In this document: piece after piece, positions 14,778 through 23,407 of the stretch
Layout: each line of letters begins with the position of its first letter
How positions within the stretch are numbered: position 1 is the stretch's first letter
Assembly (NCBI GenBank): GCA_004565275.1
Contig: SDOX01000005.1
Coordinates: 1,090,765-1,154,764, forward strand
Reading direction: 5' to 3'
Origin: Nannochloropsis salina CCMP1776
Taxonomy: Eukaryota; Sar; Eustigmatophyceae; Eustigmatales; Monodopsidaceae
Length of the DNA stretch: 64,000 nucleotides
Translations under genes and position numbers: made by a program
The notes under the pieces: model-generated
What the model saw: only the letters and a program-made list of their open reading frames with translations
The model's database searches: none
Told to the model about the DNA's origin: nothing

Positions 14778-16314
14778 TTATTGCTTTCCATTAACATTTC
14801 GCAAGACCGCGAATCCTCTCGCCAAGTCTGCTTTCAAATCTTCGATTTCTTCCAATCCAATATGATATCTTGCCGTGGGGCCTGTCAAAAAAGGTGAGAT
14901 TGGCTCAACAGAGCGTGTAATTGTCCGCGTCGTTGGGAGTACCAAGCTTTCATAACCGCCCCAGGAGGCGCCAATGGCAAACAGATGATAGCTATTCAGC
15001 ATGGCGTGCATGGCTGCCTCGGTATATTTGGGTGAAAAGACAACGGAAAAAAGCGAGCAGCATCCCGTGTAATCGCGCACGTAATATTCGTGCCCCGGAC
15101 ACGAGGGCAAGGCGGGATGGAGGATACGCTGGATATCCTCGGGAAATGTCTCGGAAAGAAAGCGTGCAATCTCAAGGCCCGCTCGCATTTGATGCTCAAG
15201 CCGGACGCCTAATGTCCGCGCCCCTCGAAGAGCGAGCCACACGTCATCAGGAGAGGCAACCTCTCCCAGCTCCTGAGCGCATTGTCGGACTCGCTCCCAG
15301 TCCCGTCGCGTGTTGACTATGATGGCTCCCAGCAAGGTATCGGAATGGCCGACGACGTACTTTGTCAAGGCCTGATAGAAGAGCGAGCGGAAAGAATCGG
15401 GTGAGGGGAACAAATTGCCAGTGAACGCGACGACGTTACGCCAGGAAACAAGGATCATCGCCTCGATAACGCACTATATGAGTCCCCATACCAACGAATA
15501 AATTTACCTGAACGCTCACATCTACCTCTCCCTTTTCGAAGGGTCGAAAGAAATGTACGCCGTAGGTATTGTCCAAGATGCTTGTCGCACCGTGCGCTCT
15601 CGCAACGTGAGCTATCGCACGCACGTCTACCACCTCAAAGGTATGCGAACCCGGACTTTCAATGTATACCACACTAGTGTTGGGTTTGATAAGAATCTCG
15701 ATATCTGTACCGGTAGCACTTGCATGATAGTAGCTAACGTCAACGTCGAAGCGCCGTAGCATGCCTTCCGCGAAGCCTCGGACGGGCCCATAGACAGAGT
15801 CGGGGAGTAAGACGTGGTCGCCCGCTTTTGTGTAGGCAAAAAGGGCTATCGTGCAAGCGGATAGCCCGGAACTTGTAATTTGGGCCCGGATGCCACCCTC
15901 AATGTTGGCTATCATATCTTCAAGCATATGATGCGTCTAAAATTGGTGCAAAGATGGATAAAAGGTAAAATAAATCCGCAACCCGCTCGCTGATGAGCTC
16001 ACTGTCATAGCCCTTTTTACTCTTCTACGCACCTGACTTCCATTTATACCGTAGGTCAGCTCTTGCTCAAAACGCTTTCGACCTGACCACGAGGCATTCC
16101 GCTCTTCTACCGTCGGAAAGAGCACTGTACTTCCACGTTGTACAGGCGGATTTACGAAGCAGTGGCCGACTGGCCGGGATAAATGGGTCAATCTTGTTCC
16201 CAGGCCGGAGGTTTGAATGATAGAGTGTTTTTTTTCCACATCTGTCGGCATCGCGATAGACAACAATAGTACTGCCAGCGCCACAAATGAGTAGGCACTC
16301 CCTGCTCTTTGCAT
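14778..16314 (-). CDS. metC: Cystathionine beta-lyase (MetC-type PLP enzyme)
   Basis: PLP-dependent Cys/Met-metabolism enzyme that cleaves cystathionine to homocysteine, pyruvate and ammonia in methionine synthesis. Model: complement(join(14778..15371,15508..15936,16033..16314)), introns of 136 and 96 nt, 434 residues, normal length plus a presequence. The splices rebuild LTYGINGSQ/THHMLED and SVQ/ALTKYVVGHSD; the lysine in TKYVVGHSD is the PLP Schiff-base residue, and YGPVRG and DNTYG are the other cofactor contacts. IESPGSHTFEV is characteristic of MetC rather than cystathionine gamma-synthase. The chosen ATG (16314) begins a hydrophobic N terminus (YSFVALAVLLLSIA) suggesting entry into the secretory/plastid route; a later in-frame ATG (PTDVEKK) would give a cytosolic form. 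Confidence 0.92.
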
Positions 16315-16796
16315 GTATAAAAGGAGAGATCCAAACGACCATCCAGAAAGTATCAAAGCTTTTCAATCGTGCGCACAAAGCATTTCATTGTTTGACAACG
16401 ATAAAACGTGGGGGGGGGAAAGTTGCCCTTTTCCTTACCAATGTCCTCGAGGGATAAGGGACAGCGAGTAGGGCGTGTCGGAGCCCGTTGCGTTGCTCCA
16501 GTCCCGGCCCCACAATGATAGCCACGCCGTCCGGAATATGTCGTTGCGCGTCCGTGTAGCGCTTTTTCTTATAATTTACCACAGTTGTTTGACTGACTGA
16601 TTAAATAATGCAGGACATTTGGATAGTGGGCGTTGCCATTTTGCCATCTAAGCCCGTGCCGTCCTCATCCCATGAACTTCAGCTTGAAGCAGTAAGGACT
16701 TGCCAGAACAGGCTGGGAAAGACCTCAGTGCGAAGAATGCTCTTTTCACTTATTTACTTCTTTCCCCAACTTGACACATTATTTGACAAGGCTAAA
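16315..16796. promoter_or_regulatory. Shared upstream region of MetC and E1 genes
   Basis: Divergent gap feeding cystathionine beta-lyase (minus) and the E1 (plus). A run of nine G lies at about 16410. The E1 frame is open leftwards to an ATG at 16608 (63 codons upstream of the chosen start), so part of this gap may be coding or a 5' intron. No specific factor site can be named. Confidence 0.4.
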
Positions 16797-19700
16797 ATGT
16801 TGAGATCAAGACAAAGGGACAAGCTTCGACCGTATTCGGTGCTTTACCTATTCCTCATCCATGTGCTGGTCCTCCTCGAACAGCAGCGTATTCATGCCTC
16901 TATTGTCGTCGATGAAGCCCTTTATTCGCGGCAGCTTTACGTCTTGGGACTGCCCGCGCAGCAAAGACTGGCCGCCTCAAACATTTTGGTGGTAGGATTA
17001 GGTGGTGTAGGGGTTGAAATCACCAAAAATGTGATCCTGGCTGGGCCTCAGTCTGTGACCCTCATAGACCCAACACCGGCAAGAATGGTGGACCTTGCTA
17101 CCCAATACTATCTCGACGAGACGAGCTTGGGGCAGTCGCGAGCCATGTGTAGCTTTGCCAAATTGAAAGAGCTGAATCCATTGGTACAGCTCGACCTGCT
17201 AGAGCCTTCGAGTATGGACATAGAAGCCGTCGCGGAGGCTATAGCGGCAAGCGGACGCAACTTCGATGTGATAGTAGCAGCGGACCAGGACAAGGCAAGC
17301 GAGGAAGCTCTGAATACGCTAGCCCGGCGTTTAAAGGCCAAATTTGTGGCCGCGCAGGCACCTGGTCTCTTTGGGTCCATCTTCTGCGACATGGGCGACG
17401 ACTTCACCGTCAACGACACGGACGGAAAGGAGGCAAAGACGGGCCTGCTCAAATCCTTCGATCCCCTGCCTGTGACAGGCGAGACCCTGGTGACATTGCG
17501 GGAAGGAGAGCGGCACGATCTAAGCAAAGGGGACCTTGTCTATTTCGAGCGCACGGCTGCCGAGGAAGACGGTCAGACAAAGGACGCAGTCCGAGCCGGC
17601 AGCGCGGCCCCAGACCTGGAGACGGACACCTTTACCGTTAAACGCATCGTCTCGCCCTCGTGTTTCACCGTCCCTGCTAGTGCCAACCTTGTCAAACAAG
17701 TCCACCAGTACTCCAACGGCCGTTTCCGGCAGCTCAAGCAGCCACTGCAGCTCGGATTCCAGCCCTTGACCTTGGCACGGCAGGCGATGCGGTCGGTGCC
17801 CACCGATTTTGGCAAAGCCAGTCTAGGGCGACAATTAACCCTCCATGCCTGCTTCGAGAGCTTAAGAAGGTTCAAGACACATGCAGGGGGAAGGCTACCC
17901 ATCCCCGGGAGCGCCACGGATGCTGCGGCCTTCAAAAAACTGGTCAAAAGCTGCGATGTTCTGAGCGACGTCATTAGCAGCCACTCTGCCGCAATGGCCG
18001 CCAGGTCTGCCGCGAAACGGCCCACCTCCAAGACCAAGGCACCAAGCCCACCCGTCTTGGACGAGCAGATTATGGAGATCTTTGCCCGCACCTGTCAAGG
18101 TTCGCTGGCGCCGATTTGCTCCTTTGTCGGGGGCACGGCAGCCCAGGAAGTGCTGAAGGCCTGCACGGGCACTTTCGTACCCCTCCAGCAATACCTCTTT
18201 TTCGACGCGGTGGAGGTTTTGACCCCGGAGAGCGGGAACGATGAATCGCCCGAGATTTTCTCGGCGAGTCTCCCCTCGGAAAAGGAGTGCGCCAGTCGCG
18301 GGGACAAGTATGATGGCATGCGAGCTGTGCTCGGGTCTCGCTTGATGAAATTGCTCCAAGACCAGGCTATCTTCGTGGTGGGCGCGGGGGCGATTGGCTG
18401 CGAACTGCTCAAAAATCTGGCTCTCATGGGCGTGGGGCCTCTGACGGTGACCGACAACGACTCGATCGAGAAGTCGAACCTGAATCGACAATTTCTGTTC
18501 CGTGAGAGGGACCTGGGGGCACCGAAATCTGAGGCAGCAGCACAAGCCGTCCAACGCCTGAACCCAGACGTGGAAGTCCGAGCGTTGGTGAGGAAGGTGG
18601 GAAAAGAGACGGAGGAATTCTTCGACGACAATTTCTGGTTCGGGCATGACGTGGTGGCAAACGCGCTGGACAACGTCGCCGCCCGCAAGTATGTGGATGG
18701 TCGCTGCGTCTACTACCGACGGCCGTTGCTGGAGAGTGGAACGGAGGGTACCAGCGGGAATGTGCAGGTCGTGGTGCCCTTTGTCACAGAATCCTACGGC
18801 TCCAGCGTGGACCCGCCCGAGGCCAGTATCCCGGTCTGCACCCTGAAGAGCTTCCCTTACATGATCGAGCACTGCATTCAATGGGCGCGTGACTTCTTCG
18901 ACGGCTACTTTCGCATTCAACCCGAGCGCTTGAACGACCTGATGGCGCGTCTGAGCGAAAACAGCCACAGAGGAGAGGAGGACGATGCCGCCGCTGCAGC
19001 TGTGTTGGCGAGCTTGCGGGCGCAAACCAGTGATGAAACCTTGCTGCGGGAGCTAGAGGGCTGTCTTGTCGATCTGGAGATATGGGACCCCGTGCCTTCT
19101 GCTCGCCGCTGCGTGAAGTGGGCCTTGGACCGGTTCCACGAATTGTATCAGAGCAACATCGTAGCCCTGTTGCGCGAACATCCCCGCGACAGCGTCACGG
19201 AGGACGGAGAGCCTTTCTGGTCGGGCGACCGGCGGATCCCAACCCCGATCGTTTTCGACCGGAGTGACCCCTTGCACATGGACTTCCTCCTATCCGCCGC
19301 CTTGCTCAAGGCGCGCGTCTTCAACGTGGTGGATCCGACCACGACTGTGGAGGGCATGAGTGAAACTGTGCAAGCCACGCTAGATGAGATTCTTGCCTCG
19401 GGGTACCAGCCCCCCACCGAGGTGGTACGGGCGGAGGAAGAGGAAGAAGGGGACCTGGAGGCCAAGGTGCAGCGCGAGTTTGAGGAAGTGCGGCTGACCA
19501 TCAAACGCATCGCCAAACGGGGAGGAGACAACGGCAAAGGGACGGAATGCGCAGCGGCGCGGACCAGGCCGGAAATGTTTGAAAAGGACCAGGACTGGAA
19601 CGGACACATCGCCTTCATTACGAGTGCGAGCAATCTTCGCGCTGCAAATTATGGCTTGGCACGTGCGGATCGCTTGCAGACGAAGAAAATAGCTGGGCGT

Positions 19701-20429
19701 ATCATTCCTGCGATTGCGACGACGACGGCGGTAGTTGCCGGATTGGCGAGCCTGGAACTGTGTAAGCTCGCTCAGCGAAGCTTGCTAGAAGAAGAGGAGG
19801 AGTATTCGGACTTGGAATCTCAAAACAAAGAAGAGAGATTGTCAAAGCAGCGACGGCGACATCGACGACATTATCCCCCTCTTCAAGCATATCGGAACGC
19901 CTTCATTAATCTGGCAGGGCCGTTTTTGGCGCTGACGCAGCCAATGGAAGCTCATCCGATTGCTTTAGGCGAGCAAGGAGAGGTGTACAATATGTGGGAT
20001 CGTCTGGAAGTAACGCCAAAAAAAGATATGACTCTCAAATCTCTACTAGCACATGCCTCAGAGAATTTTGGCCTGCAAATAACATCCGTGACTTTGCATG
20101 GCTCGCACATTTTGTATGCGGATTTTATGCATCCCGGCGACGACAATCCAATACTAGGTAAATCCATGACAGAGCTCGTTGAAGCCGCCATGAAGAGCGA
20201 GAATAGGGCAATAGTAAGAAAAGGAGTTGAAGGTACAAATATACAAGAGATGCCGCTACGGCGGCAGTTTGTAGATTTCGAGATTGAATGCGTAGATGAC
20301 GCGGGCGATGAAGTTGAAAGTCCACCGCTTCGATATTTTTTCCCTCACGTGAAAGAACGCAAGAGCAAGGGCAGAAGGCCGTTGGCACACCGCTGGTGGG
20401 GAGGAGTGCTCAAGGCAATTTCTAAGTAA
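16797..20429 (+). CDS. UBA1: Ubiquitin-activating enzyme E1 with signal-sequence-like N terminus
   Basis: ATP-dependent E1 that adenylates ubiquitin and passes it as a thioester to E2s; 1210 residues, intronless. The whole family layout is present: inactive adenylation half (VVGLGGVGVEITKN ~64), first catalytic half, active adenylation half (VGAGAIGCELLKNLALMG ~527, NLNRQFLFRERD), catalytic cysteine in IPVCTLKSFPYMIEH at about residue 681, AASNLRAANY, and a C-terminal ubiquitin-fold domain starting MWDRLEV. Odd features: before the canonical DEALYSRQLYVLG start lies a basic then hydrophobic stretch (YSVLYLFLIHVLVLL) ending IHASIV, just like a signal peptide, absent from cytosolic E1s; a low-complexity acidic/basic insert before the AYRNAFINLAGP motif; and a basic tail of about 27 residues. 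An alternative in-frame start at 16608 would bury this stretch internally. Possibly the symbiont-type E1 of plastid import. Confidence 0.93.
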   Translation: MLRSRQRDKLRPYSVLYLFLIHVLVLLEQQRIHASIVVDEALYSRQLYVLGLPAQQRLAASNILVVGLGGVGVEITKNVILAGPQSVTLIDPTPARMVDLATQYYLDETSLGQSRAMCSFAKLKELNPLVQLDLLEPSSMDIEAVAEAIAASGRNFDVIVAADQDKASEEALNTLARRLKAKFVAAQAPGLFGSIFCDMGDDFTVNDTDGKEAKTGLLKSFDPLPVTGETLVTLREGERHDLSKGDLVYFERTAAEEDGQTKDAVRAGSAAPDLETDTFTVKRIVSPSCFTVPASANLVKQVHQYSNGRFRQLKQPLQLGFQPLTLARQAMRSVPTDFGKASLGRQLTLHACFESLRRFKTHAGGRLPIPGSATDAAAFKKLVKSCDVLSDVISSHSAAMAARSAAKRPTSKTKAPSPPVLDEQIMEIFARTCQGSLAPICSFVGGTAAQEVLKACTGTFVPLQQYLFFDAVEVLTPESGNDESPEIFSASLPSEKECASRGDKYDGMRAVLGSRLMKLLQDQAIFVVGAGAIGCELLKNLALMGVGPLTVTDNDSIEKSNLNRQFLFRERDLGAPKSEAAAQAVQRLNPDVEVRALVRKVGKETEEFFDDNFWFGHDVVANALDNVAARKYVDGRCVYYRRPLLESGTEGTSGNVQVVVPFVTESYGSSVDPPEASIPVCTLKSFPYMIEHCIQWARDFFDGYFRIQPERLNDLMARLSENSHRGEEDDAAAAAVLASLRAQTSDETLLRELEGCLVDLEIWDPVPSARRCVKWALDRFHELYQSNIVALLREHPRDSVTEDGEPFWSGDRRIPTPIVFDRSDPLHMDFLLSAALLKARVFNVVDPTTTVEGMSETVQATLDEILASGYQPPTEVVRAEEEEEGDLEAKVQREFEEVRLTIKRIAKRGGDNGKGTECAAARTRPEMFEKDQDWNGHIAFITSASNLRAANYGLARADRLQTKKIAGRIIPAIATTTAVVAGLASLELCKLAQRSLLEEEEEYSDLESQNKEERLSKQRRRHRRHYPPLQAYRNAFINLAGPFLALTQPMEAHPIALGEQGEVYNMWDRLEVTPKKDMTLKSLLAHASENFGLQITSVTLHGSHILYADFMHPGDDNPILGKSMTELVEAAMKSENRAIVRKGVEGTNIQEMPLRRQFVDFEIECVDDAGDEVESPPLRYFFPHVKERKSKGRRPLAHRWWGGVLKAISK

Positions 20430-21355
20430 CCAAAGTCTGAGTATTGGAATGATGATTGAAAGTTTTTTTAAAGAAATCGGTAAGGCACACAATCAAACTG
20501 CGTCAACGAAAGCATACTCAGTATCCTTTGGTAGGTGCTTTCTCAGGCATGGTATTTACTTTTAAATTATTTTTTCTTGCATAGCAGTGTCGCAAGTAAT
20601 GGATACTAAAATTTCAACAATAATTGGAATTCTACCAGCACAAAGCCGTGGCGCACTGGCTCTAAATATGGGAGGCCTCCCGTCTCTCTCGAGGCCTCTG
20701 GTAATGTAGCTATGACTCACAATGCGCAAATCATCCCCACCGAATCACTTTAAACAATCGCCCGGTAAAATACCTGTTGTATGACCGAATCTTTTCATCG
20801 TCTTCTGGAGGGCGCATTTGCATCACCACGGACAAGACAATTGGCTGCAGGCTTCGGTCACCCTCGCCAGGCTACCCGGAGGATTGAAGCTTCCACCTTC
20901 GCCATATTCGAGTGCCCGATTCAAACATGGCTCCTGTTCTGAAGCGTACCATCAGCTCTCAGGGAGGCCAAAGTTTTGATGATGAGGTCCGCAATCTTTG
21001 GAGGTCCTCTTAACGGAGACTGCTGTAGCTTGAACGTCGTCTGCATTTTCTTTACCGTGATAATCAATCATCAACTCTCCCCTCAAAACAAGAAAACCGG
21101 AGCACTGCAAGGCAGCTGGAAGCTTCATTGTGGCAGAAGACAGTGAACATCGACAGCGCCGTCTGCCACCGTCACAATCTCCTCTGCCTATAGACGGTGC
21201 CGGCGACGGAAGTGACGCGCAAAATCTGGTCTTTTGCTTCAACCTTAAATCTTCCTCTCCTTGTGCACCCCCTTTCCTCCGCCTCGGCCGCCGTTGCCGT
21301 GGTCACACCGTCACTTGAGGAAGAGAGCGAAACACAAAGGGAGGCAGGTCAGGTG
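20430..21355. other. Gap between E1 and CD36-like gene
   Basis: About 0.9 kb. The left part is AT-rich 3' UTR-like DNA. A 96-codon minus-strand frame (20952-21242) has no recognised motif. The frame of the next gene is open leftwards to 21197 but contains no ATG before 21356. Confidence 0.35.
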
Positions 21356-23407
21356 ATGGGCCGGTACGACGAAGATGATGCCCACGCTGAAGCAAAAAGG
21401 GTTGAGTATTCTTCCTTCAAGGATGCTTTAGATGACGGTGACTCATTTTTTGGCAGCCCGGAGCGTGCCTCCTTTTGCGTCCGTCGTCCTATGTGTGGTG
21501 TCTGGGGTGGACCTCGCGTTTGGTGCATTCGTCGGGCCAGCGATCGCTGGGGAGTGCTTTTGATAAGCGTCGCTGTAGTCCTCGGGGTGCTCACAGCCTG
21601 TGGCCCATTGATAGTGGATCGTCTAGTCGCCCAGGGGATTGATGCGCAGACGGTTCTGAAAGGTGCTTCGGGAAAAGCCTACAAGACCTTCGTGGACAGT
21701 GGAGAAAACTTGGGTGTTGAAATCTACTACAGCTTGCACTACCTCAACCTCACGAACCCGACCGAGCTGTTGGAGGGCACAGCGCTTGCGCGCCTGGAGG
21801 AAATAGGCCCTTTCGTGTATCGACAACATCGGCACAAATTGAACTTGACGTTCGCTTCTGACGGAGAAACAGTGAGCTTTGTCTTGCAAAAGACATATGT
21901 TTTCGACGAAGGCGCCAACGCGGCGACGGGCTTGGTCGACACCGACGTGCGCGTGACCACGGTGCATCCAGTGATCCAGGTCCTCCAAGGGCAACTCCAG
22001 AACACCCTTAACTCGCAGCTCAAAGAGATCATTCACCCCGCCATCGGTTGGCTGGCGCCTTTGCGGCGCGCGATTGAACGCGAAATCGATGCCTCGGATC
22101 TCTGGAAGGCCGTGTACAAGCTAGTGCTCTGCCAAGGCAACCCCATGGGCGTCTCTCCCTTCACGGTCCAGAGCGCCCGAGATTTGTATTGGGGCTACCA
22201 TAATGACAGCGTACTGTTGACTATGCAGGCATTGGTAGGGGCCATAGATGAGCTGGCCAAGCGTGTAGGCAAGAGGGTGTCTCTGCCGGTCATCCCCGAA
22301 GCCTTCCCGGGACTCCAGCCCAACCTGACTTCCGAGGCGGAGACTGCCCGTCGGATCGGCCCCAATGTGGTTTACACGGGGCAAGGGAAAACCAAGGCAC
22401 GTCTGCAGGGGTACATGATGTTCCAAAACATGACGCAGGTCCACGCATGTCCGGACCCGACCACGGGGGACGCCCCGGCCCCGGGAGAGATGCCCGCCTG
22501 CGACATCTATCAGGCGGACTGGACCAACAGGTCGGCCGTTCGGCATGGGTACTTCCCGCAGTGGAGAAGCGCGGCTGCCAACGAGGTTCGAGGTACGGAC
22601 GGGAGCTTGTTCGCGCACCCCTTAACGGGCCAGGAGACGGTCGTCACTTTTCAGGAGGATTATCGCCGGTGGATCGAGATGGTGTACGTGGGAGAGGTGC
22701 ATGATTTCCACGGGATTTCGCTGCGTCGTTATGTCTTCAGCCAGGAGGATTTCCGGAATGACTCGGTCATGTCGGCAGACTGGTACCAAGACAATCTGCC
22801 GACGGGGTTGTCAAACTTGACGCTCATGGGCGGTTTTCCATTGTTCTTGAGCAAGCCCCATTTCCTGGAGGCGGACCCGAGCGTGCAGCAGGCAGTGGAA
22901 GGATTGAATCCAGACCCAGAGTCGCACTTGACCTTTATCGATGCGGAAGAGCGCAGCGGGGTCACGTTTCGCACCCACAAGCGTGTCCAGTTGAATGCGG
23001 GCTTGAAGCGACTCCGATTCCCCTCCTTGTCTCGCATCGAAGCTTCGTCGTTGGCGACCATCCTGCAGAGGGACTTGAATGAGGCAGAAAGACGATGTGT
23101 GCGTGAGGAAGTGACATGGGACTTTGGCCTGCCCGCCGAGGGGGATGAACACATGCTCTTCTTGCCGATGGTCAGGTACGATGAAGGCTTCGAAATGCCT
23201 GCATCTTTCGTCAAGGATTTCAAAAAGCAAGTGCTTGGGAGCACAAGCGCCGCAAAAACTGTACAGGTGGCGGGTCCCTTGTTTGCAGTCTTATTAGCGT
23301 TGATTGGAGTGATCATCATCATGAGAGGAAGGCGAAACGAGCAAGAGCTCGCACGTCGGCGGACACACCGATACAGTACCATACACGAGGGGGATATAAT
23401 GGTGTGA
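21356..23407 (+). CDS. CD36/LIMP-2 family scavenger-receptor-like membrane protein
   Basis: Type III membrane protein of 683 residues, intronless; family members bind lipids or lipoproteins and sit in plasma or lysosomal membranes. Topology matches the family: short acidic cytosolic N terminus, first membrane span (GVLLISVAVVLGVLTACG, ~68-86), a large glycosylatable ectodomain, then a second span near the C terminus (VAGPLFAVLLALIGVIIIM) and a short basic tail ending RYSTIHEGDIMV. Family cues include the YFxxxLTNPTEL-like region (YYSLHYLNLTNPTELL), GPFVYRQHRHKLNLTF, and many NxT/S sites. The chosen start is the first ATG in frame. The ectodomain is longer than in animals. Ligand unknown; algal members may concern lipid handling, which is inference. 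Confidence 0.87.
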   Translation: MGRYDEDDAHAEAKRVEYSSFKDALDDGDSFFGSPERASFCVRRPMCGVWGGPRVWCIRRASDRWGVLLISVAVVLGVLTACGPLIVDRLVAQGIDAQTVLKGASGKAYKTFVDSGENLGVEIYYSLHYLNLTNPTELLEGTALARLEEIGPFVYRQHRHKLNLTFASDGETVSFVLQKTYVFDEGANAATGLVDTDVRVTTVHPVIQVLQGQLQNTLNSQLKEIIHPAIGWLAPLRRAIEREIDASDLWKAVYKLVLCQGNPMGVSPFTVQSARDLYWGYHNDSVLLTMQALVGAIDELAKRVGKRVSLPVIPEAFPGLQPNLTSEAETARRIGPNVVYTGQGKTKARLQGYMMFQNMTQVHACPDPTTGDAPAPGEMPACDIYQADWTNRSAVRHGYFPQWRSAAANEVRGTDGSLFAHPLTGQETVVTFQEDYRRWIEMVYVGEVHDFHGISLRRYVFSQEDFRNDSVMSADWYQDNLPTGLSNLTLMGGFPLFLSKPHFLEADPSVQQAVEGLNPDPESHLTFIDAEERSGVTFRTHKRVQLNAGLKRLRFPSLSRIEASSLATILQRDLNEAERRCVREEVTWDFGLPAEGDEHMLFLPMVRYDEGFEMPASFVKDFKKQVLGSTSAAKTVQVAGPLFAVLLALIGVIIIMRGRRNEQELARRRTHRYSTIHEGDIMV

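Follow-up and report, generated by a model that had tools for sequence, protein, structure and literature searches.

Red-derived plastids take up proteins across their second membrane by means of a recycled, ubiquitin-driven machine, the symbiont-derived ERAD-like machine (SELMA; ERAD, endoplasmic-reticulum-associated degradation). According to PMC3971594, SELMA occurs in every such lineage whose plastid has four membranes. PMC7617431 counts Uba1, a ubiquitin-activating enzyme (E1), among the SELMA components that separate from their ERAD paralogs, reports that the SELMA proteins group with red algae, and names Ubc4 as the SELMA ubiquitin-conjugating enzyme (E2) studied. For the apicoplast of Toxoplasma and Plasmodium, PMC3681736 places an E1, an E2 and a ubiquitin ligase (E3) at the periphery of the red-derived plastid, most likely in the periplastid compartment; in comparison, the Nannochloropsis case described here is a candidate read from sequence. 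It concerns one gene in a stretch of 64,000 nucleotides (hereafter, the window) from the genome of Nannochloropsis salina CCMP1776 (contig SDOX01000005.1, positions 1,090,765 to 1,154,764, forward strand). PsaB encoded on contig C103 of this genome matches chain 8zo9_b of the PDB at 718 of 722 positions of the printed alignment (1678 bits, against 1465 for the runner-up chain). Other chains of 8zo9, a Nannochloropsis oceanica structure, are called VCPI, VCP being the eustigmatophyte antenna. PsaB thus places the DNA in Nannochloropsis or a very close relative; four light-harvesting proteins, out of 34 matches listed, did not identify the organism. We propose, with a probability of about 0.8, that this gene encodes sUba1, the E1 that serves SELMA in the periplastidal compartment of a Nannochloropsis-type eustigmatophyte.

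A different picture has been drawn for two other species of the genus. PMC6610115 (2019) reports that the major SELMA components are missing from N. oceanica and N. gaditana, where sUbi, sUbc6, sCdc48-1, sUfd1 and sNpl4 were not found, and that sDer1-1 and sHsp70 carry a signal in N. oceanica; sUbc6 is listed there for Phaeodactylum. From this absence the paper argues that import relies on another system or that there is none, within a scenario where the symbiont nucleus took the place of the host nucleus.

A complete Uba1-type E1 with a leader-like N-terminus

The frame at 16797–20429 on the plus strand encodes a complete Uba1-type E1; the same frame is open from 16608, and its stop codon is included at 20429. 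The product of the open frame 16608–20429 scored above the Pfam cut-off for each of ThiF, UBA_E1_SCCH, E1_UFD and E1_4HB, and its best match in the PDB was yeast Uba1 (E = 3.2e-188, 631 bits). A UBA6- or UBA7-type identity was rejected on the PDB scores, which were at most 540 bits for UBA6 and 504 bits for UBA7 versus at most 631 bits for UBA1. The enzyme shares with yeast and human Uba1 the domain types and the active-site motifs, the catalytic cysteine in IPVCT being kept together with TDND, RQFLFR and NALDN, and differs from them in its predicted N-terminal leader, in insertions and in a basic C-terminal tail, the last two being apparent in the alignment. The ubiquitin-fold domain, also present, is the E2-recruiting part of known E1s. 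The Pfam domains, the match to yeast Uba1, and the intact catalytic cysteine and ATP-site motifs bear out an earlier sequence-only reading of this DNA, which had described the product as a complete, apparently active E1.

The sequence conserved in the family starts with VDEALYSRQL at 16908, 37 codons 3' of the ATG at 16797. Read from that ATG, the protein begins with MLRSRQRDKLRPYSVLYLFLIHVLVLLEQQRIHASIVVDEALYSRQL, in which a leader is predicted (Table 1). Leaders were compared by the best 10-residue Kyte–Doolittle mean within the first ~32 residues, the charge preceding it, and the presence of a small-x-small site following it. The window E1 scored 3.15, with a charge of +4 ahead and a small-x-small site after. 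Among other proteins of the same genome, some of which are described below, sUbi and sUbc6 scored 3.34, four light-harvesting preproteins 2.40–2.64, sDer1 2.06, and sCdc48 −0.28, the hydrophobic stretch of the last being outside the scanned residues; the values for the host E1 and the host Cdc48 were 0.45 and 1.14, respectively. Among the open ATG starts of the window, 723 in all, six (0.83%, any real signal peptides counted) reached 2.8 with a positive charge and a site, none of 860 stop-free dinucleotide shuffles of 16797–16883 reached 3.15, and the maximum for the 3' ends of 10 introns placed by homology was 2.55 (24 of 30 frames were long enough for scoring). These controls argue strongly that the hydrophobicity of the predicted leader exceeds chance. 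The basic-hydrophobic stretch that the earlier reading had seen just 5' of the canonical start of the family is thus confirmed by its score and by the chance controls.

The residue at position +1 after the possible cleavage site would be S, not F, W, Y or L. By the diatom rule given in PMC11528492, such an S fits retention in the periplastidal compartment.

A second, leaderless E1 in the genome

The searches of the genome (26.5 Mb, 103 contigs) found one other full Uba1-type E1, on contig C99. It starts with MASSSSGVEAALKNTNALSNNAAFMDKYSRQIG, without a hydrophobic N-terminus, and splicing over one 152-nt intron gives the N-terminus MASSSSGVEAALKNTNALSNNAAFMDKYSRQIGAFG, which likewise shows no hydrophobic leader. 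A search for a second E1 without a leader had been suggested with the earlier reading, which was to be given up if there were none; the C99 enzyme is such an E1. The search with the SCCH domain gave three matches in the genome, the third of which is a fragment beside the ThiF matches of contig C23 and was taken as UBA2.

The window and C99 E1s are identical at 363 of 1028 aligned positions (35.3%); another alignment gives 346 of 1033, for a range of 33–35%. Their identities with yeast Uba1 are 41.0% (353/862) for the window E1 and 45.2% (390/863) for the C99 host E1, in an alignment whose yeast row ends ahead of the ubiquitin-fold domain. The possibility that the window E1 arose from the host E1 by recent duplication was rejected, because the two are less similar to each other (33–35%) than each is to yeast Uba1 (41% and 45%). 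Judging from these identities, either the two lineages parted long ago or the window copy is evolving fast.

The E1 alignment was also used to scan viral contigs, where 286 pattern matches contained no E1 relatives. From the E1 scan of genome contigs, a single locus out of 60 was used: L074 (NYVR01000102.1), a contig of a metagenome-assembled genome labelled Planctomycetota, encodes a full-length eukaryotic-type E1 that is 53% identical to yeast Uba1 and is probably a eukaryotic contamination of that assembly.

Putative partner proteins with leaders or leader-like extensions

Contig C72 encodes a divergent single ubiquitin, sUbi, in which exon 1, MASRPNRIRCSSLLALVTVILVCIAHSSWAAIGISPRLCTVTPFQRGNGRQSSAFQRFMSVRGGMQ, is followed by a 363-nt intron and then by ubiquitin. 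Its leader is clearly of the signal-plus-transit type and consists of MASRPNRIRCSSLLALVTVILVCIAHSSWA, a transit region and SVRGG, directly before ubiquitin. R72 and the GG tail are kept, and a short extension, WPWVR, lies beyond the tail; with a leader in front and WPWVR behind, the protein would need processing at both ends. At this locus (L046, C72:595502–595717, minus strand), K63 is lost (IGDDS for IQKES) and K48 is kept. The E2 on contig C15, sUbc6, is composed of a textbook signal peptide, MWWRGSAALLSPPSLLSLLLLLLLLHRPSCA, an E2 domain whose closest match in the PDB is UBE2J2/Ubc6, and a C-terminal hydrophobic stretch. Further E2 fragments, apparently of the same type, were found on contigs C45 and C78.

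The leaders of the other two partners are less clear-cut. In sDer1 (L012, C14), the Der1 domain does not start until residue 141, behind a hydrophobic stretch and a leader of basic character, and in sCdc48 (L040, C6) a hydrophobic stretch is followed by a leader. For sCdc48, splicing at the acceptor CTACAG was rejected because it breaks the frame, and the in-phase acceptor was taken instead. The other Cdc48, on C1, is intron-rich, and its assumed likely start, MDESTGKAGDG, has no hydrophobic stretch. The N-terminus of a second Der1 (L011, C47) is ambiguous: it may carry a leader (MRKNNWG...LTRLHA...VGGGNSP), and a leaderless start, MRPPRPQ, is also open. This protein might represent sDer1-2 or else a derlin of the host, and was not accepted as a second sDer1. 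The genome search, which is weak for intron-split genes, found no canonical Ufd1 of either kind, host or symbiont. It gave one match for Npl4, and the Ufd1-domain matches were confined to one gene, which we take to encode a PRLI-interacting-factor-K-like protein.

V-R-G-G was noticed at or near the junction between leader and mature part in three of the four leaders, namely SVRGG directly before M in sUbi, RVRGG in sDer1 and VVRGG in sCdc48, but not in sUbc6. In a comparison made after the motif had been noticed, VRGG did not occur in the 12,408 residues of 15 long frames of the window. VRGG is similar to LRGG, the tail of ubiquitin, and likewise to the V-R-M that stands ahead of the mature part in two of four light-harvesting proteins inspected, so that it may be no more than a variant of an ordinary processing site. 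A bolder proposal, which we regard as rather improbable, is that Nannochloropsis keeps a working SELMA in which one deubiquitinase-like peptidase acting at V-R-G-G would release ubiquitin from its leader and process the import machinery as well. The E1 has no such junction and no clear transit spacer, and in this proposal it would enter by its signal peptide alone.

Assignment of the window E1 to SELMA

The assignment is by elimination, not by localisation. A ubiquitin and an E2 sent to the plastid periphery need an E1 beside them, and the other E1 found is leaderless, which leaves the window E1 as the candidate. As with sUba1 of red-derived complex plastids, a nucleus-encoded, complete and intact Uba1-type E1 stands beside a separate leaderless one, in a genome that also codes for copies of ubiquitin and E2 with clear leaders and of Der1 and Cdc48 with leader-like extensions; the difference is that the transit region of the window E1 is very short in the model starting at 16797. 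On this genomic logic, the enzyme probably works like a SELMA E1. We infer its location, its pairing with sUbi and sUbc6, its red-algal ancestry and its exact leader.

The proposed pathway would proceed as follows. The N-terminal signal would direct the E1 through Sec61 into the chloroplast endoplasmic reticulum (ER), from which the enzyme would reach the periplastidal compartment across the second membrane. It would adenylate the compartment's own ubiquitin, sUbi, hold it as a thioester on the cysteine encoded at 18837–18839, and hand it to the membrane-anchored Ubc6-type E2. Preproteins coming through sDer1 would then be ubiquitylated and pulled in by sCdc48.

Several observations weigh against this assignment. 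Read from 16797, the protein has its likely cleavage site only about four residues ahead of the conserved E1 sequence and has no transit-peptide-like spacer, unlike sUbi, sDer1 and sCdc48; the spacer is longer in the models starting at 16608. The hydrophobic stretch overlies a pyrimidine-rich tract ending in AG, and raw frames running into introns look signal-like in sUbi and sCdc48. The 63 codons of 16608–16796 would be open by chance with P = 0.04, and all 92 codons of 16608–16883 with P = 0.0185, which favours a start earlier than 16797. As for the partners, sDer1 and sCdc48 scored low in the leader test, the residue after the likely cleavage site of sUbc6 is L, which is permitted for stromal proteins (PMC11528492), and sCdc48 has its hydrophobic stretch some 40 residues from the N-terminus, a long way in for a signal peptide. 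The genome search, with its weakness for intron-split genes, found no leader-bearing Ufd1 or Npl4. That search proceeded exon by exon, scoring the best candidates only and leaving other ThiF matches unclassified; a third, heavily split E1 is unlikely. Finally, PMC6610115 reports sUba1 without a predictable signal in N. oceanica and N. gaditana.

We nevertheless kept the odds for sUba1, because it is sUbi, sUbc6 and the second E1, without a leader, that carry the argument. The sequence-only reading had already suggested a SELMA E1 and had itself doubted a spacer so short for a transit peptide. The leaderless second E1, the leader-bearing ubiquitin and E2, and the leader-like Der1 and Cdc48 add to that suggestion, while the doubt stands.

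Start codon and 5' gene model

In-frame ATGs are located at 16608, 16737 and 16797, and an in-frame TAA at 16602. The codon score of 16692–16796 is noncoding-like (−0.131 per codon), and those of 16797–16883 (+0.030) and 16608–16691 (+0.024) are comparable with the range of −0.037 to 0.000 obtained for five further 5' coding stretches. The 16608 frame was not accepted as established coding sequence, since the codon score does not decide. A possible intron (Table 1) would, if real, remove the hydrophobic stretch from the window E1. Its GTAAGG donor is seen in one other placed intron of the genome, that of the C47 Der1, and the chance of an open frame through the stretch is P = 0.038.

We favour, at even odds, a start at 16797 with no intron. 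An intron from 16692 or 16728 to 16883 combined with a start at 16608 is a tentative second model, and an unspliced start at 16608 seems more doubtful. The least probable of the four models is that a signal-peptide-like micro-open reading frame at 16538 is spliced onto the E1. This frame (16538–16600), upstream of the E1, is short and signal-like, reads MSLRVRVALFLIIYHSCLTD up to a stop codon, and contains a donor-like site, GTTTGA, so that it could serve as an alternative first exon.

Alternative explanations

The gene might encode a second cytosolic E1 with a role like that of animal UBA6, an explanation that we consider improbable. The signal-like stretch would then be the pyrimidine tract of an intron, and the true N-terminus (MQDIWIVGVAILPSKPVPSSSHELQLEA joined to QRIHASIVVDEALYSRQL, or similar) would stay outside the ER. 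The GTAAGG donor at 16692 and the acceptor ending at 16883 match in phase, but a stop-free intron of 192 nt in frame has a P of ~0.04. In sUbi and sCdc48, raw frames at intron ends do look like signals, yet the 10 placed introns reach at most 2.55 as compared with 3.15 for the E1 stretch. The codon score of 16692–16796 is noncoding-like, as this explanation would have it. Against it, the spliced N-terminus itself opens with a hydrophobic IWIVGVAIL (score 2.46, no positive charge ahead), and a cytosolic E1 would leave the leader-bearing ubiquitin and E2 without any E1.

Less probable still is an uncleaved signal anchor, by which the E1 would be membrane-bound at the chloroplast ER or the periplastid membrane and not soluble. 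The strong hydrophobic core with its positively charged n-region, the lack of a spacer for a soluble transit peptide, and the hydrophobic stretch at the end of the E2 as well are all consistent with an anchor, but RIHA followed by S is a fair cleavage site, and known E1s are soluble. That the E1 is an evolutionary leftover with another job, SELMA having been lost in Nannochloropsis as PMC6610115 argued from sUbi, sUbc6, sCdc48, sUfd1 and sNpl4 not being found in two species (Table 2 of that paper), is very hard to reconcile with the leader-bearing ubiquitin and E2, the leader-like Der1 and Cdc48, and the intact active site of the E1.

Coordinates and neighbouring genes

Table 1. Features at the E1 locus, in positions of the window.
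Feature	Position	Strand	Evidence
Upstream in-frame extension: 5' untranslated region, leader or first exon	16608..16796	+	Open frame, codon score, P(open)
Possible intron, GTAAGG...GAACAG, 192 nt, phase 0 at both ends, without in-frame stop	16692..16883	+	Sequence
Predicted leader: basic n-region, hydrophobic core VLYLFLIHVLVLL, possible cleavage between RIHA and S, then SIV before VDEALYSRQL	16797..16907	+	Sequence, hydrophobicity test
Uba1-type E1 body and stop codon	16908..20429	+	PDB and Pfam matches, motif alignment
E1 four-helix bundle, PF16191	17739..17951	+	Pfam; residues 378–448 of 16608 frame
Catalytic Cys codon (IPVCT)	18837..18839	+	Alignment
SCCH domain, PF10585	18855..19685	+	Pfam; residues 750–1026 of 16608 frame
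Ubiquitin-fold domain, PF09358	19995..20327	+	Pfam; residues 1130–1240 of 16608 frame

The 5' region of the E1 gene is bounded by a divergent, intron-split gene at 14778–16356 on the minus strand, whose product has a hydrophobic N-terminus, MQRAGSAYSFVALAVLLLSIAMP, and is presumably a pyridoxal-phosphate enzyme of the cystathionine gamma-synthase/beta-lyase type, judging from its motifs. The next long frame on the strand of the E1, at 21197–23407 (plus strand), encodes a CD36-family protein (Pfam, E = 4.1e-65).

Implications

For this genome, the loci described here contradict the absence of sUbi, sUbc6 and sCdc48 given in PMC6610115 and side with PMC3971594 on these three components. Searches of openly licensed papers on SELMA or protein import in Nannochloropsis or eustigmatophytes brought up no title that corrects the 2019 claim, which may have been corrected in other literature. 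The argument from absence is weakened, as far as this genome is concerned, by the leader-bearing ubiquitin and E2, the leader-like Der1 and second Cdc48, and the one E1 left for them. These loci also make the SELMA question directly testable in a small alga, and Nannochloropsis is transformable.

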